This document shows positions 21,989 to 60,399 of a DNA stretch of 64,000 bases, piece after piece. The stretch's first letter is position 1. Each line of letters begins with the position of its first letter. Location of the stretch: contig NC_012489.1 in NCBI RefSeq assembly GCF_000010305.1, positions 620,001-684,000 on the forward strand, in the 5' to 3' direction. This stretch comes from Gemmatimonas aurantiaca T-27 (GTDB taxonomy: Bacteria; Gemmatimonadota; Gemmatimonadetes; Gemmatimonadales; Gemmatimonadaceae). Made by a program: the position numbers and the translations under genes. Below the pieces are notes generated by a model. The model ran no database searches and had not been told where the DNA came from. It saw only the letters and a list, made by a program, of their open reading frames with translations.

Positions 21989-23614
21989 ATGCCTCTGACG
22001 TCGATCGCTATGTCAAAGCGTCTGCCGTCGCTTGCTCAATTGGTTTCCGACGCAGCCGGACGGTTTCACGACCGCCCGGCGCTGGCTGGGCACGTCGGTG
22101 TGGTGACGTACGGAGAGCTCGACACGAGCGCCAGGCACTGGGCGACGGCGTTGAGGCAACACGGTGTGCCGCAAGGCGGACGTGTGGGCGTGCTCGGCAA
22201 CCGCTCGCGCGTCACTTATATAGGTGCACTTGCCGCGGCTTATGCCGGGGCCGCGTTCGTGCCACTCAACACCAAGCTGCATCTTGACCGAGTGCGTCGC
22301 ATTTCGCGGCTGGCCGAGTTGGATGCGGTGATCGTGGAGCCCGATGCGTTGGGCGTGCTCGACCTGCTGCTCGAGGAAATGCCGTCCCTCAAGCTGATCC
22401 TGGCGCCTGAATCGGTACTCACCGCACGCGTGGGCGGTATCGCCACGTGCGACAGGACCACACTGCCGGTCAACGCCGAGGCACCCTGTCTCGCGCCGGA
22501 CCGCGACGCGCTGGCGTATCTGCTGTTCACCTCTGGTACGACGGGCACCCCCAAGGGCGTCGGGGTCACGCAGGGAAATGTCGCCGCGTATCTGGAGCAG
22601 GCGCGTGCCCGTTTTGCGTTTGCGCCGACCGATCGTTTCTCGCAGATGTTCGAGCAGTCGTTCGACGTGTCGATTTTCGATCTGTTCGTGGCATGGGCCA
22701 GTGGTGCCGCCGTGCATACGCTGGCCGCACGACAACTGGTGGCGCCGGCCAGTTACATCGAGCAGGAAGGCATCACCGTGTTCTCCTGCGTGCCGTCGGT
22801 GCTGTCCCTGATGAAGCAGCGCAACGCGTTGCGGCCCGGTCGGTTTGCCTCGGTGCGCTACAGCATGTTTGCGGGCGAGGCGCTGACCGTGGAAAATGCA
22901 CGGGAGTGGGCGGCTGCTGCCCCGAACAGCGTGATCGAAAACCAATATGGCCCCACGGAAACCACGGTCGTGGTGACGGGGTTTCGTTGGTGCTCCCGTG
23001 ACTGCCGGGAGTATCCCAACGGATACATTCCCATCGGTGCCGCATTCCCGGGGGTCGATGCCCGCATTGTCACGTCGGAGCTGCGCGACGTGGCCCCGGG
23101 CGCGTCCGGCGAATTGTTGATCGGCGGACCGCAGACGGTGCCGGGGTATTGGCGTGACGGAACGCTCACACGCGAACGGTTTGTCGATCTGCCGACCGAC
23201 GGCGGTGAGCGTCAGCGTTACTATCGCACCGGAGATCTCGTGCGCAGTCTCCCCAGCGGGGATATCGCGTATCTCGGGCGCGTGGACCATCAGCTCAAGG
23301 TGCTCGGCCGCCGCGTAGAGCCGGCCGAAGTCGAAGCGATCGCGCGTCAGGTACCGGGGGTGACCGATGCGGTCGCGGTCGGGTGGCCGCTCGAAGACGG
23401 ACGTGCCGTGGCGTTGACGCTGTTTGTGCTGGCCTCATGCGGCGATGAACAGCTCTCTGGCGAAGTCACACAGTCGATTGCGTTGCGCGTGGAGCCGTTT
23501 CTCGTGCCGCGCACCGTCATTCCGTGTCGTGAATTTCCGACCAACGCCAACGGAAAGGTCGATCGCGCCGCATTGTTGGATACATTGCGTGAGTCTGCGC
23601 TCGTCGCCACCTGA
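21989..23614 (+). CDS. AMP-forming adenylation enzyme (amino-acid/acyl activation), module 1
   Basis: This ANL-superfamily enzyme of about 541 residues should activate an acid as an adenylate and load it on the adjoining carrier protein. The core motifs are intact: LLFTSGTTGTPKG (P-loop-like), NQYGPTET, YYRTGDL, GRVDHQLKVLGRRVE and the lysine-bearing ANGKVDR. Its closest style is a stand-alone NRPS or DltA-type adenylation domain without a condensation domain. The start is one of two nearby ATGs (21989 or 22010), both without a clear ribosome site. It is followed 27 bases later by a carrier protein gene and then an acyltransferase, forming a three-gene operon. Confidence 0.88.
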   Translation: MPLTSIAMSKRLPSLAQLVSDAAGRFHDRPALAGHVGVVTYGELDTSARHWATALRQHGVPQGGRVGVLGNRSRVTYIGALAAAYAGAAFVPLNTKLHLDRVRRISRLAELDAVIVEPDALGVLDLLLEEMPSLKLILAPESVLTARVGGIATCDRTTLPVNAEAPCLAPDRDALAYLLFTSGTTGTPKGVGVTQGNVAAYLEQARARFAFAPTDRFSQMFEQSFDVSIFDLFVAWASGAAVHTLAARQLVAPASYIEQEGITVFSCVPSVLSLMKQRNALRPGRFASVRYSMFAGEALTVENAREWAAAAPNSVIENQYGPTETTVVVTGFRWCSRDCREYPNGYIPIGAAFPGVDARIVTSELRDVAPGASGELLIGGPQTVPGYWRDGTLTRERFVDLPTDGGERQRYYRTGDLVRSLPSGDIAYLGRVDHQLKVLGRRVEPAEVEAIARQVPGVTDAVAVGWPLEDGRAVALTLFVLASCGDEQLSGEVTQSIALRVEPFLVPRTVIPCREFPTNANGKVDRAALLDTLRESALVAT

Positions 23615-23641
23615 TCACCCGCCACACCGTCTATCGCCTGC

Positions 23642-23869
23642 ATGCCCGTGCTCGAAGAAGTGCTCGCTCTGGCGCTCCGCCTTCCGCTGGAGCGCATCGA
23701 CGAGACCATTGGTTACCAGCTCATCCCGCAGTGGGATTCCGCGAACCATGTCGCGTTGATCGGTGCGCTCGAGGAAGCGTATGGCATCATGATCGATGAC
23801 GAGGATATCCCGGACCTGAATTCTGTGTCGGCGATTCGCCGCTATGTCGAGCAACGTACCGGCGGTTGA
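23642..23869 (+). CDS. Acyl/peptidyl carrier protein, module 1
   Basis: The 75-residue acidic protein has the phosphopantetheine site WDSANHVALIGALEEAYG with Ser33, and the helix layout of a carrier protein. It is the likely acceptor for the adenylation enzyme encoded just upstream. The sequence around the serine (WDSxxHVxLIGAxEE) is nearly the same as in the carrier protein at 54366, which shows the two modules are related. The gene overlaps the next one by 26 bases. Confidence 0.88.
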   Translation: MPVLEEVLALALRLPLERIDETIGYQLIPQWDSANHVALIGALEEAYGIMIDDEDIPDLNSVSAIRRYVEQRTGG

Positions 23870-24491
23870 TCCGCAGGTTGTGCACGGGAGCAGTGAACCC
23901 ACGGCTGTTCCGAACTGGGCACTGATTTCCCGTGTGTTGCGGGAACCCGGGCACGCGGTGTCGGTGTTCCTGGCGGTCCTGCGGGGGCGCCTCTACACGT
24001 GGTGGGCGCAGGCCTTTCGGCCGCGCGTGCAGATCGGTCAGGGACTGCGGATCTACGGTCGACTGGATATCCGCGGTTCAGGCACGGTGGTACTCGGGGA
24101 TGGTGTGCAGATCTATGGACGGGTGACACCATGGACCAATGCGCCCGACGCCCGCATCGAGGTGGGTGATGACACCAAGCTCGATGGGACGCGCATCAGT
24201 TGTGTGACCCGCGTGCGCATCGGACGCGAGTGCCTGATCGCCAACTGTCGCATTCTCGACACGTCATTTCATGCGGTGCGCCGTGACGCTCATTCGGCGA
24301 CGATGCCGATCCTCGAGGGGCCCGTGGAGGTGGGAGACAACGTATGGATCTCGCCGGATGCCGGGCTGCTACCGGGCACACGTATCGGCAGCAACTCGGT
24401 GGTCGCCATGGCAGCGATCTGCAAGGGTGAGTTCCCCGAGGGTGTGATGATCCTGGGCAATCCGGCGCGGATAGCCGGGCGTATCGGCTGA
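23844..24491 (+). CDS. Left-handed beta-helix (hexapeptide) acyltransferase, module 1
   Basis: The 215-residue protein contains a run of hexapeptide turns: IGQGLRIYGRLDIRG, VVLGDGVQIYG, IEVGDDTKLDG and VRIGRECLIAN. The end is typical of O-acetyltransferases: VEVGDNVWISPDAGLLPGT, RIGSNSVVAMAAICKGEFPE, ILGNPARIAG. Such enzymes transfer acetyl or other acyl groups to sugars. Because it overlaps the carrier protein gene, it may take its acyl group from the carrier rather than from CoA. That is inference. Confidence 0.85.
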   Translation: MSSNVPAVDPQVVHGSSEPTAVPNWALISRVLREPGHAVSVFLAVLRGRLYTWWAQAFRPRVQIGQGLRIYGRLDIRGSGTVVLGDGVQIYGRVTPWTNAPDARIEVGDDTKLDGTRISCVTRVRIGRECLIANCRILDTSFHAVRRDAHSATMPILEGPVEVGDNVWISPDAGLLPGTRIGSNSVVAMAAICKGEFPEGVMILGNPARIAGRIG

Positions 24492-37962: not shown

Positions 37963-38069
37963 CCACGTGATGGTGACAGGCTAGCTTTCAGGCTCAGGGG
38001 TATGCCCCGTGTGTGACAGGTGGTGCCTTCCGGGCGTCATCGCAGTGCCCCCTACTTCCTGAGTCTTTG

Positions 38070-39044
38070 GTGACAATTCCCATATCTACCACGCAGCCTG
38101 CTGGCGGTGTCGCCAGCGGTACCGCCGCGAACGAATCGGTTCTGGACGAGATCAGTCGCGATGCGCGACGGTTCGTGGCGGCGGCACGTGCCCTCCCACC
38201 GGCAGAATTGGCGGCGCATGTTCTGACGGCGCTGATGTTCGTGCTGCTGTTTGCGAAGCCCATGCGATTGTTGGGCGACGCCTGGTGGAATGATCCCAAT
38301 TCCGGTCACGGCCTGCTGCTGGCGCCCCTGTCGCTGTGGTTCGCTTACAAGAGCGGCATCGTGGCTGGCGCCCGTCCGCAGCGCATCCTTGGCATCGCCA
38401 TCATCGTTGCGGCCGTGGTCTTCCGGTATGCGGCTGATCTGGCGGCCGAACTGTTCGTGATGCGCGGCAGCATGGTGATGGCGCTGGGCGGCTTGGTAGT
38501 GTGGCACGCCGGCTTCCGGCAACTGCTGCACTGGTGGCTGCCGTTCACACTGGTATCGCTCAGCATTCCGATCCCGGAAGTCATCCTCAATACCGTCGCG
38601 CTGCCGCTGCAATTCACCGCCAGCAAGATCGGCGCGTCGCTGCTCGAATGGCGTCAGATCCCGGTGCTGATGAACGGTAATGTCATCCGCATTCCGGGGC
38701 AGGAACTGTTCGTGGCCGAAGCCTGCAGTGGACTGCGCTCCCTGACCGCGTTGCTCAGTCTTGGCGTGCTGCTGGGCGCAATGTTCCTGCAGAAATGGCC
38801 GACACGGTTACTGCTCATCCTGATCGCGATTCCCATTGCGATCGTGATCAACGGCGTGCGCGTGTTTTTGACAGGGTTTCTGGTGTTGTTCGTGAGCCCC
38901 GAGATGGGCGAGGGGTTCATGCACACCAGTGAAGGCATGTTGATGTTCGGCGCGGCGTTCCTGTTCACATCGTTGACAGCCTGGGGGCTGGGACATGTGG
39001 AGCGCTTGGTGTTGCGTTCGACTTCCAAGGCGGAGACAGTCTGA
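38070..39044 (+). CDS. Exosortase (PEP-CTERM processing transpeptidase)
   Basis: The 324-residue polytopic membrane protein has the exosortase catalytic set: Cys219 in EACSGLRSL, Arg264 in INGVRVFLTG and His285 in FMHTSEG. About eight hydrophobic segments surround them. Exosortases cut the C-terminal PEP-CTERM tail and probably attach the protein to an envelope acceptor. Its substrates in this window are the two PEP-CTERM proteins. The GTG at 38070 is preferred. A GTG at 38013 would add 19 residues. It overlaps epsI by one base (TGATG). Confidence 0.93.
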   Translation: MTIPISTTQPAGGVASGTAANESVLDEISRDARRFVAAARALPPAELAAHVLTALMFVLLFAKPMRLLGDAWWNDPNSGHGLLLAPLSLWFAYKSGIVAGARPQRILGIAIIVAAVVFRYAADLAAELFVMRGSMVMALGGLVVWHAGFRQLLHWWLPFTLVSLSIPIPEVILNTVALPLQFTASKIGASLLEWRQIPVLMNGNVIRIPGQELFVAEACSGLRSLTALLSLGVLLGAMFLQKWPTRLLLILIAIPIAIVINGVRVFLTGFLVLFVSPEMGEGFMHTSEGMLMFGAAFLFTSLTAWGLGHVERLVLRSTSKAETV

Positions 39045-39706
39045 TGCGGTTTGCAACATTTGCACCGGTAGCGGTGCTGGGTTTGGGTGTGCTGCTGATT
39101 TCGGGGATGCGCGAGCAGCATGCCGTCGAGCCGCGCTCACCCATGAACAGCATTCCGCGCACGATGGCCGGCATCGAGGGACGCGATCTGGTCGTGCCGG
39201 AGGAAGAGCGGAAGGTGGCCGGCATGACGGACTACATGATGCGCGTCTTTGGCTCGGACTCGGCGCCGGCATTCACGACCTACGTCGGTTATTACGATCA
39301 GCAGGTGCAGGGAAAGGCCATCCACTCCCCGAAGAATTGTTTGCCCGGGGCTGGTTGGGAAATCATGGAGTCCACGCCCGTACCATCGCCTGATGGGCGC
39401 GCGGGTGCGACAATCAATCGGGTGATCCTGTCCAACAAGGGCACCAGGGCCTTGGTGTATTACTGGTATCAGGGCCGTGGGCGGGTGCAGTCGAATGAGT
39501 ATCGCGTCAAGTGGGATTTGATGCGTGATGCAGCACGCTATGGACGCACCGAGGAGGCGCTGGTGCGTATCGTGTTGCCCGTCGATCCTGCACAAAATGG
39601 TGCCATTACCCAGATTGGTCGCCTGCCGCAGGACAGCTTGGCGATCGAAGTTGCTCGGGTATTGTTGCGAGAGGTGGATCGGGCACTTCCCCAATCCGCG
39701 AGCTGA
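39044..39706 (+). CDS. epsI: EpsI, exosortase-associated protein
   Basis: The 220-residue protein has an N-terminal membrane anchor (FAPVAVLGLGVLLISGM) and an extracytoplasmic domain with the EpsI signatures YYDQQVQGKAIHSPKNCLPGAGW and VYYWYQGRGR. EpsI is a constant partner of exosortases, and in some genomes the two are fused. Its start codon overlaps the exosortase stop, which supports translational coupling. Confidence 0.92.
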   Translation: MRFATFAPVAVLGLGVLLISGMREQHAVEPRSPMNSIPRTMAGIEGRDLVVPEEERKVAGMTDYMMRVFGSDSAPAFTTYVGYYDQQVQGKAIHSPKNCLPGAGWEIMESTPVPSPDGRAGATINRVILSNKGTRALVYYWYQGRGRVQSNEYRVKWDLMRDAARYGRTEEALVRIVLPVDPAQNGAITQIGRLPQDSLAIEVARVLLREVDRALPQSAS

Positions 39707-51467: not shown

Positions 51468-52823
51468 CTACTTGCGAATGCTGTCCTTGCGCGCCTTCGG
51501 GAACTTCTCCGAGAGCCCGTCCGCGTACGGACGCTCGCCATGGCCAATGTAGATCTGCCGCGGCCGGGCGATCTTCTGTTCCTTGTCGAGGATCATCTCT
51601 TCCCACTGGGCGAGCCACCCGGACACACGCGCCACGGCAAACAGCACCGTGAAGAAGTCCGTCGGGAACGCCATGGAGCGATAGATCAGCCCCGTGTAGA
51701 AGTCGACGTTCGGATACAGCTTCCGGGACACGAAGTAGTCGTCGGACAGGGCGATCCGCTCGAGCTCCAGCGCGATTTCGAGATCCTTGTCCATGCCGAC
51801 CTGCGCGAAGACTTCATCGGCCAGCTTCTTCACGATACGGGCGCGCGGGTCATAGCTCTTGTAGACGCGGTGCCCGAAGCCCATCAGGCGATCGCCCTTG
51901 CCACTCTTCACGGACTCGATGAAGGCAGGGATGTTCTTCTTGTCGCCGATGTCGGTGATCATGCGCAGCACCGCCTCGTTGGCGCCACCATGCAACGGCC
52001 CGTACAGCGCCGCAATGCCGGCCGCGACCGCCGAGAACGGGTCGACGTGCGATGAGCCCACGGCACGCACCGCGTTGGTGCTGCAGTTCTGCTCATGGTC
52101 GGCGTGCAGGATGAACAACACTTCCAACGCCTTCACGAATACCGGATTGGCCTCGTACTTGGGCTCGGACATCCGGGCGATCATGGAGAGGAAGTTCTCC
52201 GTGTAGCTGAGATCGTTGTCGGGGTAAATGAATGGCAACCCCTTCACGTGCCGATACGCGAACGCCGCGATGGTGGGCAGCTTTGCCATCAGGCGGATGG
52301 TGCTGATGTATCGCTGCTGCGGATCCTGAATGTCGCGCGCATCCGGGTAGAAGCTGGACAGTGCGGCTGTGGCGCTGCACAGCATGCTCATCGGGTGCGC
52401 ATCGTACCGGAAGCCTTCCAGGAACTTCCGGATGTTCTCGTGCACGTACGTATGGTACGTGATGTCATGCACCCACGAGTCGTACTGCGTCTGATTGGGC
52501 AACTCGCCGTTGCGCAGCAGGTAGGCCACTTCGAGGAAGGTAGCGTTTTCCGCGAGCTGCTCGATCGGGTACCCGCGATAGCGGAGAATGCCCTGATCGC
52601 CGTCGATGAACGTGATGGCGCTCCGGCAGGAGGCCGTGTTCATGAACGCCGGGTCGTAGCTCAACAAGCCAAACTCGCTGGCTTCGCGCTTGATCGGGCG
52701 CAGGTCCATGGCGCGCATGTACGTGTCGCCTTCCGGACCCTCCGTGCGGATTGGGGCGCTATACTGGCTGCCGGACCGGCTATCGGTCAGCTCAAGCACA
52801 TCGGCGTTTGCGGCGTTGCTCAT
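51468..52823 (-). CDS. gltA: Citrate synthase
   Basis: The 451-residue protein has the enzyme's catalytic blocks: ILHADHEQNCST, GPLHGGANEAV and MGFGHRVYKSYDPRA, with the catalytic histidines, and the C-terminal DFYTGLIYRSM and arginine-binding segments. It condenses acetyl-CoA and oxaloacetate to start the TCA cycle. Length fits the hexameric bacterial type. I start at MSNAANADVLEL (52823). The longer frame covers the upstream intergenic sequence. Confidence 0.96.
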   Translation of the reverse strand: MSNAANADVLELTDSRSGSQYSAPIRTEGPEGDTYMRAMDLRPIKREASEFGLLSYDPAFMNTASCRSAITFIDGDQGILRYRGYPIEQLAENATFLEVAYLLRNGELPNQTQYDSWVHDITYHTYVHENIRKFLEGFRYDAHPMSMLCSATAALSSFYPDARDIQDPQQRYISTIRLMAKLPTIAAFAYRHVKGLPFIYPDNDLSYTENFLSMIARMSEPKYEANPVFVKALEVLFILHADHEQNCSTNAVRAVGSSHVDPFSAVAAGIAALYGPLHGGANEAVLRMITDIGDKKNIPAFIESVKSGKGDRLMGFGHRVYKSYDPRARIVKKLADEVFAQVGMDKDLEIALELERIALSDDYFVSRKLYPNVDFYTGLIYRSMAFPTDFFTVLFAVARVSGWLAQWEEMILDKEQKIARPRQIYIGHGERPYADGLSEKFPKARKDSIRK

Positions 52824-52905
52824 CGGCTTCGTTGTAGGGCGTGGCGATTGGGAAAGTACCCCTCTCGGGTAGGAGAAATGTACCAACCGCTCACCAGCCT
52901 GTACA

Positions 52906-54312
52906 CTAGAACTGACGGTAGCGGAAGTCGGTGCCCGCGCCGTTGCCCATGAAGACATGCGCCACCACGAACAGCAGCATTGTGACGAGATCCCGACGCA
53001 GCCCAGGCGTCGACGCACTGGCAATTCGATCGCTCGTGGCCTGCCCAAAGGCCAGAATCACGCCAAGCAGCACCGGAGCCGTGATGAGACGAAGGTCTGT
53101 GGTGGGAATGACGCCTCGCAGCACCGCCGTTGACAGGGGGTCGAGTGGGGACACGAGTTGGCTCAGCATCTCGATCGTGATGGCGACACTCGCTGCCTTG
53201 ACCGTGATGAACACCACACTCACAAACAGGAAGGTCGCGACGATGTCCAGTGGCCTGGGGAGGGGGCGTTTCAAGCGCTTCCAGTACTGATAGCCACCCA
53301 ACGCCAATCCGTGGAGCAATCCGAAGATCGCGAAATTCCACGTGAACCCATGCCACACGCCGGCAATGATCATGGCCACCAGCGTTGCCATGGCGGACTT
53401 CCGCAGGGTGACTTTGCCCATGCGTCGAAGCAGTGGCGTGTACAGGTACGTGGTGATGAAATCGCTCAGCGTGATGTGCCACCGTTTCCAGAACTCGCTG
53501 ATCGTGGCACTGCGAAACGGGGCGTCGAAATTTCGCGAGAGCTTCATGCCCAGCAACTGCGCAGACCCGAGTGCAATGTCGGAATATCCGCTGAAGTCGA
53601 AATAGACTTCAAACGTCGCCGATAGCACCGTGATCCATGCCTCCAGTGCGGAGAGCGATTCGACCGCACCGAACCCGGCACCTGAGATCTTCGCGAAGGA
53701 ATCTCCGAAGACGACCTTCTTCACCAGTCCCAGCGCGATGAGGAACAGGGCCTTCCCGGCCAGATCGTGCTCGCTCGCTGGTGATTTCGCCGCGTCCAGC
53801 TGCGAATAGAACAGACGAGTCCGCAGAATCGGACCCGCCGTAATGTTGGGAAAGTAGGATACGAAAGTGGCGTGTTCTGTCAGTCCACGAGCGGGGACCA
53901 GACGTTCGTAACAATCCACCAGGAACATCACCTGGGCGATCGTAAAGAAACTGAGCCCGAGTGGCATGCCGATGCCCCCGAGCCACGACACCGTATCTGG
54001 CAGGGCCATCGCTGGACTGACTTTGAACACAATCAGCGCGGCCACGTTCACCCCAAGTCCCAACTGCAACAGGCGCCGCCGGGCGGTGCCGGGTTCCGTC
54101 GACGCCAGGCGTTGGGCGATGAACCAGTTGAACGTGATCGACGCAAGCAGCACCGGCAGTTGCTGCCAGCCGTTCGAGACGTAAAAGACCACCGAGGCAC
54201 ACAACAGCAGATGTGGCACCCATTGGCCACGTCGGGCACGTCGCAGGCCATAGGCGGCCAACGCCACGGCGGGCAGGAACAGCAGGAGGTATCGGAACTC
54301 GTTGAGCTGCAC
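52906..54312 (-). CDS. MBOAT-family O-acyltransferase (DltB/AlgI-like)
   Basis: The 468-residue polytopic protein has the MBOAT core: PLGLSFFTIAQVMFLVDCYE, YFDFSGYSDIALGSAQLLG, FWKRWHITLSDF and GVWHG with His321, the proposed catalytic histidine. Relatives transfer acyl groups across the membrane: AlgI for alginate acetylation and DltB for D-alanine on teichoic acid. Here it is the last gene of a five-gene run with a carrier protein and adenylation enzyme, so the DltB comparison is the better one. The gap to the carrier protein gene is 53 bases. Confidence 0.9.
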   Translation of the reverse strand: MQLNEFRYLLLFLPAVALAAYGLRRARRGQWVPHLLLCASVVFYVSNGWQQLPVLLASITFNWFIAQRLASTEPGTARRRLLQLGLGVNVAALIVFKVSPAMALPDTVSWLGGIGMPLGLSFFTIAQVMFLVDCYERLVPARGLTEHATFVSYFPNITAGPILRTRLFYSQLDAAKSPASEHDLAGKALFLIALGLVKKVVFGDSFAKISGAGFGAVESLSALEAWITVLSATFEVYFDFSGYSDIALGSAQLLGMKLSRNFDAPFRSATISEFWKRWHITLSDFITTYLYTPLLRRMGKVTLRKSAMATLVAMIIAGVWHGFTWNFAIFGLLHGLALGGYQYWKRLKRPLPRPLDIVATFLFVSVVFITVKAASVAITIEMLSQLVSPLDPLSTAVLRGVIPTTDLRLITAPVLLGVILAFGQATSDRIASASTPGLRRDLVTMLLFVVAHVFMGNGAGTDFRYRQF

Positions 54313-54365
54313 TCAGTGGCTCGTCGTGTATTGGTCGATGTCTGGCCGTGAGCCGCCGCGTCGGC

Positions 54366-54605
54366 TTATGCCTTCTTGGCGATCAAGTCCACCATATCGC
54401 CGACGCACATCAGCTCTTCCAGTTCGCCGAGGGCAAAGCGCACCTTGAAATGCTCTTCCACGGCCCCGATGAGCGTGACATGCATCAGCGAATCCCATCC
54501 GTCGACGGACTGGGCGCTGGTCTCCCGATCAACGGTCAGGTCTGAACGTTCGAACAATTCACGAAAGATCGGCTGCAACTGCTCCAGGATGATGTCACTG
54601 GTCAC
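54366..54605 (-). CDS. Acyl/aminoacyl carrier protein, module 2 (DltC-like)
   Basis: The 79-residue protein has the phosphopantetheine site GWDSLMHVTLIGAVEE with Ser39. I choose the GTG at 54605, which overlaps the GNAT gene by 11 bases. It should carry the group activated by the adenylation enzyme upstream and hand it to the MBOAT protein. The serine region matches the module 1 carrier at 23642. Confidence 0.88.
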   Translation of the reverse strand: MTSDIILEQLQPIFRELFERSDLTVDRETSAQSVDGWDSLMHVTLIGAVEEHFKVRFALGELEELMCVGDMVDLIAKKA

Positions 54606-55293
54606 CGGATGCCTCTGTGTTCGGGGTAAGAGTCTGAATGGTTCGACGAAGCTGAACGAAGCCGGCACTGCCGGTACGTTCGGCAAAAAGAGGATCGTTG
54701 GCCGGCGTGTGCCAGAAACTCTCGAATCCCGCGCTGCGGTAAGCACGTGCTGCAGCGGTGTTTTCAGCGAGCAACGAGATTTCGGCGTGCGTCGTCGTCG
54801 AGCGCGCTGTCGTCTCGCTGATGCAGTACGACGTGAGAGCCGCCGCCAGGCCAGCTCCTCGGAATTCCGGAGCGACAAAGAACGATTCGAGCTGCAGGCT
54901 TCCCGCCGTGCGCTTTGGGGCTACCGCAGCCAGCGCTCGTATGAAGCTCGCACGTGATCGCAGACGACTGATCCCCAGGAATCGGGACATCAGCATGGCC
55001 ACTGTGGTGCCACTGGGGGCGGCTCCTTCGCTCTCCACCCACTGCGTGCAGCATGCCACGGGTTTGTCAGCATCCAGCAGGAGCCGAAATCCGGCCAGCG
55101 ACAGCGGGTTGCCAAAATGCTCTCCGGACAGTGCTTCCACGGCAAAGGCCCGGAACTCCGACGGGTCCAATCCGTAGATCGCCTCGTACATCGTGCCGGC
55201 CCCGGACAACGGAACCTGCTCGGCGGCCGTCACCGCATGCACGACGAAGTCCAGATGCTGCAATGAGGCGGGCGCGAACTGAAGGTGATTCAT
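54595..55293 (-). CDS. GNAT-family N-acyltransferase
   Basis: The 232-residue protein has the GNAT acetyl-CoA core near residues 140-195: LQLESFFVAPEFRGAGLAAAL (pyrophosphate-binding R/Q-x-x-G-x-G/A type) and AEISLLAENTAAARAYRSAGF. GNATs acetylate amines. Within this operon a plausible target is the amino group of an activated amino acid, on the carrier or on the glycan. It overlaps both neighbours by a few bases, so it is an integral part of the operon. Such a gene is not part of standard dlt operons. Confidence 0.85.
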   Translation of the reverse strand: MNHLQFAPASLQHLDFVVHAVTAAEQVPLSGAGTMYEAIYGLDPSEFRAFAVEALSGEHFGNPLSLAGFRLLLDADKPVACCTQWVESEGAAPSGTTVAMLMSRFLGISRLRSRASFIRALAAVAPKRTAGSLQLESFFVAPEFRGAGLAAALTSYCISETTARSTTTHAEISLLAENTAAARAYRSAGFESFWHTPANDPLFAERTGSAGFVQLRRTIQTLTPNTEASGDQ

Positions 55294-56816
55294 GGGCGGG
55301 CAATGTCGGCGGCGAGCGCATTGCGGTCCACCTTCCCATTGCTGTTCAACGGGAACGTGCTGCGCGCATGGACCTTGTGGGGGACCATGTAGGAGGGCAG
55401 GTGCTGGGCCAGCTCCTTGCGGCAGGCACTCGCAAATCCCGCGTCTGGTTGACCGTCGACCAGCACAAAAAGATGGAGTGCCACAATGCGTCCATCGCGG
55501 GATTCGGGTACCAACGCGGCGTCCCGAACAGAGTGGACCTGGCGTGCCCGGTGTTCGATTTCCCCGGACTCGACACGATATCCGTCGATCTTGATCTGAT
55601 GATCGATGCGACCGGCGTAGAAGTACTGTGTCCCCTGACGAAATACCAGATCACCACTGCGGTAACCGGCCGTGCCATCAGGCAGTGTCACGAACGCCGC
55701 TTGAGTCTTTTCCGGGTTTCTCCAGTAGCCATTGGTGAGCTGAGGACCAATGAGGATCAACTCGCCCTTCTCGCCCTCGTCGCGCTCGAGCAGGTCTTCG
55801 CTCACGATACGGAACGCGCTGCCGGAGAGTGGCAGGCCAATCCCTACCACGCCGTTGTAGGCGTCTTCCGCGGTCGGGTGCCCGCCGAGCTCATACGCCG
55901 AAAGGAAGATGGTGGCTTCTGTCGGACCATAGACGTTGAGCAGTCGCGCGTTCGGAGCACAGGCCCACCACTTTCGGGCCAAAGCCACTGGCAGGGCTTC
56001 TCCGCAGAACATCGACAGACGCAGGTCCGGGAGCGAGATCTCGTCGAAGTACCGTTCGAGGAATGTCAGCACCGAGGGCACCATGAGTGCCACTGTGACG
56101 CGCCCTTTCTGCAGGGTGCGTGCGACTCCTACAAATCCCGCACTGCCGTCTGGTACGACCACACAGGTACCGCCGACACACAGCGGCAATGCATACGACA
56201 TGACGGAGAGATCGAACGTCAGGTCGAACATCTGGAGCACACGGTCATTGGCCCCGACGTTCCAGTCGGTGTGGGCCATGATCGCGTCCAGAAAGGCATT
56301 CAGGTTTCGGTGGAAAATTGGCACGCCCTTGGGGACGCCCGTGCTGCCGGAGGTGAACAGCAGGTACGCCATGTCGTTCTCGCCGATGGCATTGGCGGGT
56401 TGCCAGTTGGCGGGTGCCAGGCTGTCCGTTTCCAACGCCGCGACGTTCAGGCTGGAATCCGCGGTCCACCCCTCAACGGCCGCCCCCGACGTGCGACAAA
56501 TGACCGTGCGTGCTTCCGCCTGTTGGAGACACACCGCGTTGCGTTGCGTCGGTGCCTTGGGGTTCAGGGGCAAGTACGCACGCCCTTCGGCCATGATGGC
56601 CACGATAGCCGCGTACGTATCCAGCTCCTGCGTGGCGTACACGGCAACCGGCGTGGCCTTCGTCTCGTCGCGGGCACGCAGCGCCTGTCGAATCGCCTGC
56701 ACGCGTTGCGCGAAATCCCGGTACGATGTTTCCTGGCCCGCGATGCTGAACGCCACCGCATCGGGATGCTCGCTCAGCACACGCTCGAAGCGCGAGATGA
56801 AAAGTGAACCGGTCAT
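55290..56816 (-). CDS. AMP-forming adenylation enzyme, module 2 (DltA-like)
   Basis: The 508-residue protein has the full set of adenylation motifs: LLFTSGSTGVPKG, NVYGPTEATIFLSA, YRSGDLV, GRIDHQIKIDGYRVESGEIE and the lysine in NSNGKVDR. It has no condensation or carrier domain and matches DltA-like single enzymes in size. It should activate an amino acid and load the carrier protein at 54366. I start at MTGSLFISRFERVL (56816), five bases after the preceding gene. Confidence 0.9.
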   Translation of the reverse strand: MTGSLFISRFERVLSEHPDAVAFSIAGQETSYRDFAQRVQAIRQALRARDETKATPVAVYATQELDTYAAIVAIMAEGRAYLPLNPKAPTQRNAVCLQQAEARTVICRTSGAAVEGWTADSSLNVAALETDSLAPANWQPANAIGENDMAYLLFTSGSTGVPKGVPIFHRNLNAFLDAIMAHTDWNVGANDRVLQMFDLTFDLSVMSYALPLCVGGTCVVVPDGSAGFVGVARTLQKGRVTVALMVPSVLTFLERYFDEISLPDLRLSMFCGEALPVALARKWWACAPNARLLNVYGPTEATIFLSAYELGGHPTAEDAYNGVVGIGLPLSGSAFRIVSEDLLERDEGEKGELILIGPQLTNGYWRNPEKTQAAFVTLPDGTAGYRSGDLVFRQGTQYFYAGRIDHQIKIDGYRVESGEIEHRARQVHSVRDAALVPESRDGRIVALHLFVLVDGQPDAGFASACRKELAQHLPSYMVPHKVHARSTFPLNSNGKVDRNALAADIARP

Positions 56817-56821
56817 GCCAC

Positions 56822-57925
56822 TCAACGAAGGTGGAGAGAGCGTGAAGACGCCTGTCGGCATCCAAGAAGGTCGATAGTGACCCGTGCCACACTGTCGGCG
56901 ACGACGGCAGCGCCCGCATCACTGAAATGCACAGGATCTGCGAAGTACTGCGCCCGCTGCCGGGACTGAGGAAAGGCCGCGTCCACGAGCGCAACACCGG
57001 AATCTCTCGCCGCATTGCGGATTCGCGCTACGGCCGAATCAGTGAACTGCATGAGCAGGTGTCCGGAAGCCTTGGGTACCTGTCGTTCCCAGGCATTCAT
57101 CCACTGTCGTTCGTCAACAGACGTCGAGATGGTGTCGCCGAAGCGGTGGTATGGAATGACGAGTGCCAGGGGAATGGCACGGCGTTTGGCATCGGCAATC
57201 AGGGCACCGAGGTGTCGATCCAGCGAATCGAGGCGTTCGCGCGGAAATCCGTCGAATGGCACAGCGCCGCTGCTGCGTGAAGCCTCCGTGTCTCGGCGAC
57301 GCAGCGCATCCAGGAGCCACCCTGGGGTCGCGTCCTTGATTTCCGTTCGTAGCCGGAATGCTACCCGGGAGGCAAAGGCCGGCTGGTCTCCGGCACCTGG
57401 TTTCGCGGGATACCGGACCGTCGGAACCTGATCCCACAAGTACTGCGTCGGCTGGAGATAGTAGACCAACAGCCGCGGATGCAGCGCTGCCAGTCTGTTC
57501 TGCAAGTCCACGGAGACCCAAGGCTGCGACATGCCCGCCGTGGCGGCGTTCAGGACGGTCACCCGCTGATCCGCGCATGACGACGCCAGCAGGCGTTGTG
57601 CAATGCGCGGCCATTCGTGCTCAGGCGACTCATATAGTCCGAATGTTTCGCTCGATCCGGTCGCGATCACCACCGCCGACATCGCCAACGAGTCTGTGCG
57701 CTCCTCGGGCCCCCGGAAGCCGAGGGTGTTGATGCGGAAGTGTCGATACGACGCCCCGGGGCGCCCGTGCACGCCCTGAGAATCGACTACGCTAAGCTCG
57801 CCCACCCCAGAGACCTGACTCGTGATGGGCACGCCGAAACGTACGAAGTCTTCGGCTCTTGCAGAAAGCTCGAGGGCAACTGGCAAAGCCAATCCCACAA
57901 CCACAAGTCGGGCGATAGCTCGCAT
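56822..57925 (-). CDS. SGNH/GDSL-like membrane-anchored protein (DltD/AlgX-like role)
   Basis: The 367-residue protein has an N-terminal membrane helix or signal (LVVVGLALPVALELSA). An SGNH-hydrolase signature follows: ATGSSETFG around residue 92 as the nucleophile block and DPVHFSDAG near the C-terminus as the catalytic Asp-His. SGNH proteins next to MBOATs (DltD, AlgJ/AlgX) act outside the membrane to pass on or remove acyl groups. It is the first gene of the operon. Start: MRAIARL (57925). A GTG/ATG slightly upstream is possible. Confidence 0.82.
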   Translation of the reverse strand: MRAIARLVVVGLALPVALELSARAEDFVRFGVPITSQVSGVGELSVVDSQGVHGRPGASYRHFRINTLGFRGPEERTDSLAMSAVVIATGSSETFGLYESPEHEWPRIAQRLLASSCADQRVTVLNAATAGMSQPWVSVDLQNRLAALHPRLLVYYLQPTQYLWDQVPTVRYPAKPGAGDQPAFASRVAFRLRTEIKDATPGWLLDALRRRDTEASRSSGAVPFDGFPRERLDSLDRHLGALIADAKRRAIPLALVIPYHRFGDTISTSVDERQWMNAWERQVPKASGHLLMQFTDSAVARIRNAARDSGVALVDAAFPQSRQRAQYFADPVHFSDAGAAVVADSVARVTIDLLGCRQASSRSLHLR

Positions 57926-58053: not shown

Positions 58054-58902
58054 TTACCGCTGAGCGGCGGGCATGCGGAGTGCAAACTGGACGACCAACC
58101 CAGACTCGGAATTGTCGCGGATCTCAAGACGGCTTCCGAGATCACGAAGCAGTGTGAGGCACATCGCAATACCTAGTCCGGCGCTTGTGTTGATGCCAGC
58201 GAAAGCGTCGGGGGCGGTTCGCAGTTGCTCCGCTAGATCGAGGGGGAGGCCACAGCCCGTGTCGGCGACACTGAACTGTATTGTATCGGAGCCCGCTCCA
58301 ACAACGGTAGCAGTGACCGTTACAGAGCCGCTGACCGTGAACTTCAGGGCGTTCGTCACCAAATTCAGCAGGATGCGACGCAGCGCCTCTGGTTCCCCGA
58401 TACGGTGATCATTCCTGGGACCAGCCCAGCGCAGGAGCAATCCACGCTCTTCCGCAATGGGCTGAACCAACGCGCGAACAGACGCCCAAAGATCCGATAG
58501 CGGAAAGACGATATCCCGGCGGCGGCGATGCGAAGTCCCATGTCTTGCCAGGTCCAGAAGATCGCCGGTGAGCGCTGACATGCCGAATATCGATTCGTAT
58601 ATCAGCCCCAGTTGGCGTTCCTGTTGCGCAGTCACTGGTCCGAATTGGCCGGCCCGCAGCCTCTCGGCCAGGAGCAAGGTGGCTCCAATTGGAGAGCGCA
58701 GGTCATGTGCAAAACCAACGAGAAGCGCCAACGAGGGATCATGCTGGTCGAGCCACGTGTCGTTGGCGCTCAGCGAGTGCTCATCAACCACACGTTGCCC
58801 CTCTGCAATCAGGGTGTTGATGCGATCGACACTCGTATCAATGGTCGGAGTGGTGCCCGATTCGCTCTGCTGAAGTGGGGTTGCATCGGTACCAGCGCTC
58901 AT
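58054..58902 (-). CDS. Soluble sensor histidine kinase
   Basis: The 282-residue protein has a HisKA domain with phospho-accepting His66 in FAHDLRSPIG. The catalytic domain has LLNLVTNALKFT (N box), VADTGCGLP (G1) and AGLGIAMCL (G2). There is no membrane segment or PAS domain, and only about 50 residues precede the kinase core. The gene follows the response regulator by six bases on the same strand, so they likely form a pair. Confidence 0.9.
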   Translation of the reverse strand: MSAGTDATPLQQSESGTTPTIDTSVDRINTLIAEGQRVVDEHSLSANDTWLDQHDPSLALLVGFAHDLRSPIGATLLLAERLRAGQFGPVTAQQERQLGLIYESIFGMSALTGDLLDLARHGTSHRRRRDIVFPLSDLWASVRALVQPIAEERGLLLRWAGPRNDHRIGEPEALRRILLNLVTNALKFTVSGSVTVTATVVGAGSDTIQFSVADTGCGLPLDLAEQLRTAPDAFAGINTSAGLGIAMCLTLLRDLGSRLEIRDNSESGLVVQFALRMPAAQR

Positions 58903-58908
58903 GGCCTC

Positions 58909-60399
58909 TTATTCCGAAGAGCCAGAGAGTGCGTCCCGCTTGAATCCATGCTTCTCCATCAGGCGATAGAGCGTGGTGCGGTCGATGCCGGCGAGCCGCG
59001 CGGCCTTCGACATGTTCCCACCCGCGCGCGCGGTCAATCGTGCCAGATACTCTTTTTCGAAGTGCGTGACCAGGCTGTCCTTCGCCGAGTGGAACGCCTC
59101 GTTCATGATCGCGGCCGGGAAGCCCGCATCCCCATCGCCGACAGGGGCCTCGTCATAGATCGGGATGTCGTCCGGCGCGATCGGACGACCACCTTCCGCG
59201 ATCACCGCCACATGCTCGATCACGTTCTGCAACTCACGGACGTTGCCCGGCCACGGACGGGATTGCAGGAACGCAATCGTTTCCGCCGTGAAGGTGGGCG
59301 CCGAGGCCTCATGGCTCCGGTGACGTTCCCACGATCGCTTGAGGAAGTACTCGGCCAGGAGCGGGATGTCCTCCACTCGCTTGCGCAGCGGCGGCAGCTT
59401 GATCGGTACCACGCGCAGGCGGTAGAACAGGTCTTCGCGCAGAATGCCCTGCTGCACCGCTTCCTGCGGGTCGCGATTGGTGGCCGAGATGAAACGCACG
59501 TCTACCACGGCGTCTTGCGTCTCGCTGCCCAGTCGTCGCACCACGCCATCCTGCAACACGCGCAGCAGCTTGGCCTGGAGTGGCATGGCCATTTCCGTCA
59601 GCTCGTCGAGAAACAACGTGCCGCCGTTGGCCATCTCCAGCAGGCCAGCCTTGTCGCGATCGGCGCCGGTGAAGGCGCCCTTGCGATGCCCGAACATTTC
59701 TGATTCGAGCAGATTGTCCGGCAGTGCGGCGCAGTTGATCGGCACCAGCTTCCGCGCCGTGCGTCGGCTGTGTTTGTGGATGAACTGCGCGATCATTTCC
59801 TTGCCGGTGCCGCTTTCGCCGCTGATCATCACCGAGGCGTCCGTTGCGGCCACTTTCTGCGCCAGTTCCACGGCCTTCCGGAACGTCGGGGATACCCCCA
59901 ACAGCGACATGAGCTCGCCGGCTCCGCTCTGGGTGACCAGTCCGGCGGGACGCACAGGTTCCCGCACGTCCTTGGTGGTGGCCACCGCATGGGCGGCACG
60001 ACCGATGAGGACCTGGAGGTGGCTGGCCGAGAACGGCTTGGGGAGATAGTCCCAAGCGCCGGCCCGCAGCGCCTCGATGCTGGACGCCACCGTGGGGTTG
60101 CCCGTCATCACCACCACGATGACCTGTTTGTGCGCCTCAACAGCAGCCTTGAGGACCTCCATGCCCGAGATCGGGGTCATGTAGAGGTCCACCAGGATCA
60201 AGTCGAAGCGCTTGCGACGCACCAGGTCCAGCGCCTCATCACCCCGCCCGGTGGCGGTGACTGCGTGCCCATCCATTTGCAACACAGAAACACACCCTTC
60301 TCGCAGCGTCCGGTCGTCATCGACGACGAGGATGCGCAAGCCGGTGCCCTTGTCGGGTACGGAAGAGCTGGGAGGTTCTGCGAGGAAAGGATCAGTCAT
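58909..60399 (-). CDS. Sigma-54-dependent (NtrC-family) response regulator
   Basis: The 496-residue protein has a receiver domain (LVVDDDR, phospho-acceptor Asp71 in LILVDLYM). Its AAA+ domain carries Walker A GESGTGKE at about 194-201, GAFTGA at 241-246 and FRLR-type blocks. A Fis-like helix-turn-helix closes it (NMSKAARLAGIDRTTLYRLMEKHG). The GAFTGA loop contacts sigma-54, so it should activate -24/-12 promoters such as those before the PEP-CTERM genes. Its position in an exosortase/EPS locus parallels PrsR. Confidence 0.93.
   Translation of the reverse strand: MTDPFLAEPPSSSVPDKGTGLRILVVDDDRTLREGCVSVLQMDGHAVTATGRGDEALDLVRRKRFDLILVDLYMTPISGMEVLKAAVEAHKQVIVVVMTGNPTVASSIEALRAGAWDYLPKPFSASHLQVLIGRAAHAVATTKDVREPVRPAGLVTQSGAGELMSLLGVSPTFRKAVELAQKVAATDASVMISGESGTGKEMIAQFIHKHSRRTARKLVPINCAALPDNLLESEMFGHRKGAFTGADRDKAGLLEMANGGTLFLDELTEMAMPLQAKLLRVLQDGVVRRLGSETQDAVVDVRFISATNRDPQEAVQQGILREDLFYRLRVVPIKLPPLRKRVEDIPLLAEYFLKRSWERHRSHEASAPTFTAETIAFLQSRPWPGNVRELQNVIEHVAVIAEGGRPIAPDDIPIYDEAPVGDGDAGFPAAIMNEAFHSAKDSLVTHFEKEYLARLTARAGGNMSKAARLAGIDRTTLYRLMEKHGFKRDALSGSSE

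Follow-up and report, generated by a model that had tools for sequence, protein, structure and literature searches.

The pathways in which an MBOAT and an SGNH protein relay acyl groups to the cell surface have been split in published work into those fed by a carrier protein and using a separate shuttle peptide (Dlt) and those fed by acyl-CoA with a shuttle fused to the MBOAT (PatAB type). The shuttle is an FXYXXF hexapeptide that carries an acyl-Tyr intermediate, in PatA and, in the Dlt pathway, on DltX; the MBOAT/SGNH pathways other than Dlt operate without a carrier protein (PMC12148441). Here, we analysed a cassette of five minus-strand genes that fills positions 57925-52906 of a 64,000-nucleotide stretch of Gemmatimonas aurantiaca T-27 (the window, part of one contig of 4,636,964 bases) and encodes, in this order, an SGNH protein, an adenylation enzyme (A), a GNAT protein, a carrier protein and an MBOAT. 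Judged from its sequence, the cassette is not a Dlt operon; it is an MBOAT/SGNH relay that is fed by a carrier and has its shuttle fused to the MBOAT, and we lean towards reading it as an acylation system for a surface polysaccharide with an N-acyl-aminoacyl group as donor. This cassette, and relatives in which the carrier is loaded by FkbH, break the published split, being both carrier-fed and fused.

All five genes that an initial annotation had placed on this strand were recovered, as open reading frames (ORFs) and by family searches. Its description of them as mostly overlapping or within five bases of each other holds at three junctions, 5 bases separating the SGNH stop from the A start while A and GNAT overlap by 4 bases and GNAT and carrier by 11, but the carrier-MBOAT junction, with a gap of 53 bases, is not tight. 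The longer ORF of the A gene starts at 56861; the ATG at 56816 is the start that fits DltA-type models. In Pfam, the MBOAT scored 79.6 with the MBOAT family (cut-off 27) and A scored 233 bits with AMP-binding. The SGNH label is the weakest by profile, Lipase_GDSL_2 scoring 27.9 against a cut-off of 32.9, and a sequence search of the PDB with this protein gave no reliable match; its motifs are nevertheless intact, with the nucleophile Ser92 within TGSSETFG and a D330-P-x-H333 motif behind an N-terminal hydrophobic segment (residues 3-21). Hence the two proteins show what characterizes an MBOAT-SGNH pair: a catalytic His (His321) and a C-terminal FxYxxF hexapeptide, with the shuttle Tyr465, in the MBOAT, and a separate anchored SGNH with its Ser and Asp-His.

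We found a second full cassette with the same gene order, at a different locus, in one other Gemmatimonadaceae genome (G182, metagenome-assembled genome SSF37, loci L031/L032). The identity between the two cassettes is 47% for SGNH, 59% for A, 45% for GNAT, 69% for the carrier and 53% for MBOAT, and the two agree at MBOAT His321, at SGNH Ser92 and D330xxH333, and at carrier Ser39. On one side of the second cassette lie genes for a flippase and a further SGNH-like protein, on the other a gene for an O-antigen-ligase-like protein. The same genes in the same order at another locus of a second genome show that the five-gene set is not due to chance and, since the flanks differ, that the five genes travel as a unit. 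In a profile search, the A clade was present in 2 of 179 Gemmatimonadaceae genomes, which scored 1082 and 1052 bits while none of the others exceeded 293, and both loci keep GNAT and MBOAT, contrary to the possibility that homologous loci lack one or the other. The overlaps said to lock the GNAT in place on both sides are a property of the first cassette; in the second, 93 bases separate GNAT and carrier. The GNAT has one true relative among 200 sampled Gemmatimonadota genomes. Searches of plasmids gave no match with the GNAT and, with A, only matches of at most 40% identity, all in other module types; a scan of genome contigs with the A alignment (two patterns only) returned distant A domains besides the known second cassette, and a scan of viral contigs with the MBOAT and A alignments found no relatives. 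The rarity thus applies to the phyla sampled, the profile searches having left out Pseudomonadota chromosomes. A literature search, which most subscription journals lay outside, found no system combining MBOAT, GNAT, SGNH and adenylation enzyme, or FkbH and MBOAT.

The locus had been annotated as a Dlt-like operon with an extra GNAT. The Dlt-like logic, a membrane relay to a surface polymer, stands, but a Dlt operon plus one gene does not fit the Dlt model scores, the fused shuttle or the FkbH-cassette relatives. A plain Dlt operon was rejected on four defining features: A reached 319 bits with the DltA model TIGR01734 (cut-off 559.85) and the MBOAT 188 bits with the DltB model TIGR04091 (cut-off 375), no DltD model matched the SGNH protein at E 0.001 (GDSL models only, below cut-off), and the shuttle is not on a separate DltX, the MBOAT itself ending in FRYRQF. 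A fifth feature is shared, a carrier with its phosphopantetheine Ser (PP-binding 25.8, above the Pfam cut-off of 20.8; Ser39 in GWDSL). In the reference dlt operon of Latilactobacillus, FIYNEF is the end of DltX, and DltB lacks such a motif. The MBOAT end, DFRYRQF, is identical in both cassettes, and an FxYxxF end is found in 67 of the 68 MBOATs compared; being the rule in MBOATs of this kind, it supports the mechanism, not novelty. The exception is a DltB-like MBOAT; it belongs to a Dlt-like operon without a GNAT (L071, 4448-8687), made up of carrier, SGNH, A and MBOAT, in a Gram-negative Gemmatimonadaceae genome.

With regard to the substrate, A scored 319.0 bits with TIGR01733, just above the cut-off (317.4; NCBIfam), and retains Asp202, as expected of an amino-acid adenylation domain; the alternative that it activates fatty acids, which the initial annotation had named as fatal to its proposal, is not what this score and residue point to. 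The pocket residues Asp202, Leu203, Met206, Cys271 and Lys495 are common to A and the reference DltA, while Val295, Ile303 and Phe304 differ. We take Asp at position 202 to bind the alpha-amino group in the adenylation family and Cys at position 271 to line the D-alanine pocket of DltA; because both are kept, the substrate is likely a small alpha-amino acid, D or L, with alanine or glycine as the most likely candidates. An identity of A as an exosortase-A AMP-ligase (TIGR03098) was rejected, at 204 bits against a cut-off of 592.

We propose the following relay, whose steps are well supported by motifs and whose substrate, N-acylation, acceptor and topology we infer. A would activate a small alpha-amino acid with ATP and load it onto the 79-residue carrier; the GNAT would acylate its amino group from acetyl-CoA or another short acyl-CoA, most likely on the carrier. 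The MBOAT would then take the N-acyl-aminoacyl group off the carrier thioester and place it on its own Tyr465 on the periplasmic side. The anchored SGNH protein would accept it on Ser92 and attach it through an ester bond to a hydroxyl group of the exopolysaccharide that the neighbouring locus produces; this locus encodes an O-antigen-ligase-like protein, glycosyltransferases, a flippase, a Wzz/tyrosine-kinase-like protein and an SLBB protein.

The acceptor could instead be peptidoglycan, lipid A or an exosortase-anchored protein glycan. The window encodes an exosortase and EpsI, the cassette lies elsewhere in the second genome, and PatAB shows that MBOAT/SGNH pairs can act on peptidoglycan (PMC12148441); but both cassettes adjoin flippase, O-antigen-ligase-like or Wzz-type genes and the site adjoins exopolysaccharide genes in a congener too, which leaves such a target unlikely, though the strongest of the alternatives.

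The role of the GNAT was considered separately. It scored 30.9 with Acetyltransf_7 (Pfam cut-off 27) and combines a fold and an acetyl-CoA loop typical of the family: the model adopts a GNAT fold over residues 1-221, and the loop, R145-G-A-G-L-A150, is of the RxxGxA type. Among structural matches the model is closest to 4m85 (Z 16.7, root-mean-square deviation 3.1, 180 residues), followed by a large set of amine and N-terminal acetyltransferases with tied scores. Since GNAT-less Dlt-like operons exist in Gemmatimonadaceae (L071), the GNAT appears to be an addition, and the best reading is that it N-acetylates the aminoacyl group. Acetylation of the carrier-bound amino acid would be the simplest form of this, because the GNAT-less operon is complete for plain aminoacylation and because Gram-negative polysaccharides are known to bear N-acetyl-D-alanyl, N-acetyl-L-alanyl and N-acetylglycyl groups, there in amide linkage to amino sugars (PMC3210612).

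If, however, the GNAT were merely co-transcribed and acted on an amino sugar nucleotide of the same polysaccharide or on a protein, the relay would deliver a free aminoacyl ester as Dlt does. That A, carrier, MBOAT and SGNH suffice is indicated by L071 in the same family, and GNATs are common in polysaccharide loci in general; yet in both cassettes, at different loci, the GNAT comes immediately after A and ahead of the carrier, none of the congeners compared has a GNAT alone at the site, and a polysaccharide-type module of Flavobacteriales (L033) has a different GNAT directly after A and carrier. We rate this slightly below a different acceptor. N-acylation with a group other than acetyl, for example succinyl, 3-hydroxybutyryl or fatty acyl, would be in keeping with the many acyl-CoAs that GNATs use and with the N-[(R)-3-hydroxybutyryl]-L-alanyl groups known on polysaccharides (PMC3210612), but the sequence carries no sign of a longer acyl chain and we regard another N-acyl-amino acid as improbable.

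Several observations weigh against the N-acyl-aminoacyl relay. Only two cassettes are known; the acetyl-CoA loop of the second is RGLGVS, with Ser in the last position; the GNAT model rests on a two-sequence alignment (predicted local distance difference test, pLDDT, 72) and that of the MBOAT (pLDDT 37) is unusable for shuttle geometry; the acceptor of the GNAT is not readable from sequence; and GNAT folds also condense on carriers, the condensation domain of Ebony, which has a GNAT fold and uses a carrier-bound amino acid, being among the structural matches (6dym, Z 12.8). That the GNAT similarly condenses the carrier aminoacyl with an amine, while MBOAT and SGNH move a different acyl group, is very improbable given that dozens of ordinary acetyltransferases match the model equally well or better, that the acetyl-CoA loop is kept, and that the MBOAT clusters with carrier-linked MBOATs in a cassette encoding a single carrier.

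We then aligned, across other Gemmatimonas genomes, the stretch bounded by the response regulator/histidine kinase genes on one side and the citrate synthase gene on the other. The site is polymorphic in the genus: it is empty, or holds MBOAT-SGNH alone, FkbH-carrier-SGNH-MBOAT, or the A/GNAT cassette. No cassette is present in nine genomes (G067, G038, G530, G171, G533, G289, and G180, G528 and G532, these last three without the kinase). A two-gene MBOAT-SGNH pair follows the regulators in six, at the same site in G529, G269, G249 and G537 and with citrate synthase elsewhere in G054 and G078, and G073 carries FkbH-carrier-SGNH-MBOAT at the same site, inverted. The FkbH domain of this site-sharing cassette (L124) scored 292 bits with TIGR01686 (cut-off 147). 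Further FkbH-carrier-MBOAT cassettes occur in Gemmatimonadota (L125, L126) and Acidobacteriota (L206, L208, L209); they apparently constitute a recurrent glyceryl-type polymer acylation system, of which, with or without SGNH, we found no description in the literature searched. An SGNH partner is recognisable in L124 (7690-12841) and L125, and some FkbH cassettes lie near a VOC/glyoxalase-like gene. A third kind of loading module was seen in another phylum (L127, 5605-11090), where an acetate-CoA-ligase-like enzyme accompanies a carrier, an MBOAT ending in FLYFQF and two SGNH-like proteins.

The relatives of the individual proteins differ. The cassette SGNH is 37.7-41.5% identical to the SGNH proteins of the same-site MBOAT-SGNH pairs, and the carrier 50-52% identical to carriers of FkbH cassettes. 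In a tree of 60 MBOATs, which leaves out Acidobacteriota MBOATs obtained later, the MBOATs of both A/GNAT cassettes fall together with those of two FkbH cassettes (100/100). A third FkbH cassette and the ligase cassette join them at the next level (100/99), whereas the MBOATs of the two-gene pairs found at this site are distant. This carrier-linked group is not absolute, since in a close relative from Acidobacteriota (L207) the MBOAT is paired with an SGNH and no carrier was detected. In the midpoint-rooted tree of 12 SGNH proteins, those of the A/GNAT cassettes group with those of two-gene pairs, and a 99/98 branch splits them from the FkbH ones. As the MBOAT and the carrier have their relatives in FkbH cassettes and the SGNH in two-gene pairs, the cassette looks chimeric, its acyl-loading front end having been exchanged. 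The SGNH protein, which should see the acceptor, seems to follow the local lineage, and MBOAT and carrier, which would handle the donor, the carrier lineage; the conflicting trees would fit one acceptor with exchanged acyl donors. A and GNAT would be a front end for donor loading that can be exchanged on a core of carrier and MBOAT, a core which in relatives would be fed by FkbH or an acyl-CoA-ligase-like enzyme. More tentatively, we suggest a modular, horizontally exchanged envelope-acylation platform in which the front end of a carrier-MBOAT(FxYxxF)-SGNH relay (A and GNAT, FkbH, acyl-CoA ligase, or none, with direct use of acyl-CoA) is swapped at one site like a serotype switch, the A and GNAT version exporting N-acetyl-aminoacyl esters. 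We know of no described system with N-acetyl-aminoacyl ester decoration by this route. The cassettes suggest that acyl groups of very different kinds can pass over the shuttle and that surface chemistry can be changed by swapping loading enzymes. Should the GNAT cap the amino group, the result would be a neutral decoration, in contrast to the positively charged one of Dlt, and the effect on surface charge would differ.

Table 1. Positions in the window of the cassette genes, their key residues, the flanking genes and two further gene groups
Feature	Position	Strand	Remark
SGNH/GDSL acyltransferase, N-terminal membrane anchor	56822..57925	-	ATG, 367 aa
Ser92 codon	57652-57650	-	nucleophile
Stand-alone adenylation enzyme (DltA-like/NRPS-A-like), amino-acid type	55290..56816	-	ATG, 508 aa
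Asp202 codon	56213-56211	-	
Cys271 codon	56006-56004	-	
GNAT acyltransferase	54595..55293	-	Pfam and modelled fold
Acetyl-CoA loop	54861-54844	-	
Carrier protein	54366..54605	-	GTG start inside GNAT gene, 79 aa
Ser39 codon	54491-54489	-	phosphopantetheine site
MBOAT acyltransferase	52906..54312	-	GTG, 468 aa
His321 codon	53352-53350	-	catalytic
C-terminal acyl-shuttle hexapeptide FRYRQF of MBOAT	52909..52926	-	FXYXXF motif (PMC12148441)
Tyr465 codon	52920-52918	-	shuttle
Histidine kinase (flank)	58054-58902	-	kept beside site in other Gemmatimonas
Sigma-54 response regulator (flank)	58909-60399	-	kept beside site in other Gemmatimonas
Citrate synthase (other flank)	51468..52838	-	
Second A domain, carrier, left-handed beta-helix acyltransferase	21998-24491	+	carrier in frame from ~23640
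Exosortase and EpsI	38013-39706	+	

The response regulator beside the cassette scored 377 with the PEP-CTERM regulator model TIGR02915, below the cut-off of 503. Elsewhere in the window, a second stand-alone A domain is followed by a carrier (containing ...IPQWDSANHV...) and an acyltransferase of the left-handed beta-helix type; the three make up a module of their own for decoration with acyl or aminoacyl groups. Its A and its hexapeptide acyltransferase are also found in combination in G249 (L072), and G244 (L070) has a related set. In Bacteroidota, we observed A-carrier-GNAT-AAC(3)-like (L033, 7974-11155), GNAT-like-A-carrier beside a formyltransferase-like gene (L069, 5007-8750) and, on a Segatella plasmid, A-carrier-AAC(3)-like-alanine racemase (L054, 6947-10845), modules that look like aminoacyl decoration of amino sugars.

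Taken against known systems, the cassette shares with Dlt (dltXABCD) a carrier that receives an amino acid from A, an MBOAT and an SGNH protein that move it outwards and hand it on, and acyl-Tyr shuttle chemistry; it differs in the fusion of the shuttle to the MBOAT instead of DltX, the extra GNAT, the gene order and scores far under the Dlt cut-offs, and whereas Dlt acts on teichoic acids, it lies in a Gram-negative exopolysaccharide locus without teichoic acid. With MBOAT-SGNH pairs (PatA/PatB, alginate-type) it shares the C-terminal FxYxxF and catalytic His of the MBOAT and the separate anchored SGNH, but the pairs use acyl-CoA without a carrier (PMC12148441), in contrast to the carrier and dedicated loading module found here. 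The FkbH-carrier-MBOAT-SGNH cassettes have the nearest MBOAT and carrier and occupy the same site in a congener; FkbH, which loads their carrier with a glyceryl-type group from 1,3-bisphosphoglycerate, is absent here, where A and GNAT take its place. A stand-alone A and a carrier, in one case also a GNAT, are likewise found in the polysaccharide modules of Segatella (A-carrier-AAC(3)-alanine racemase) and Flavobacteriales (A-carrier-GNAT-AAC(3)), which lack MBOAT and SGNH and presumably rely on cytoplasmic transfer to amino sugars by the AAC(3)-like enzyme. Finally, in the AlmEFG system for lipid A glycylation in Vibrio cholerae, an A domain and a carrier also bring an amino acid to a Gram-negative envelope, but AlmG is not an MBOAT, the acceptor is lipid A and there is no GNAT.

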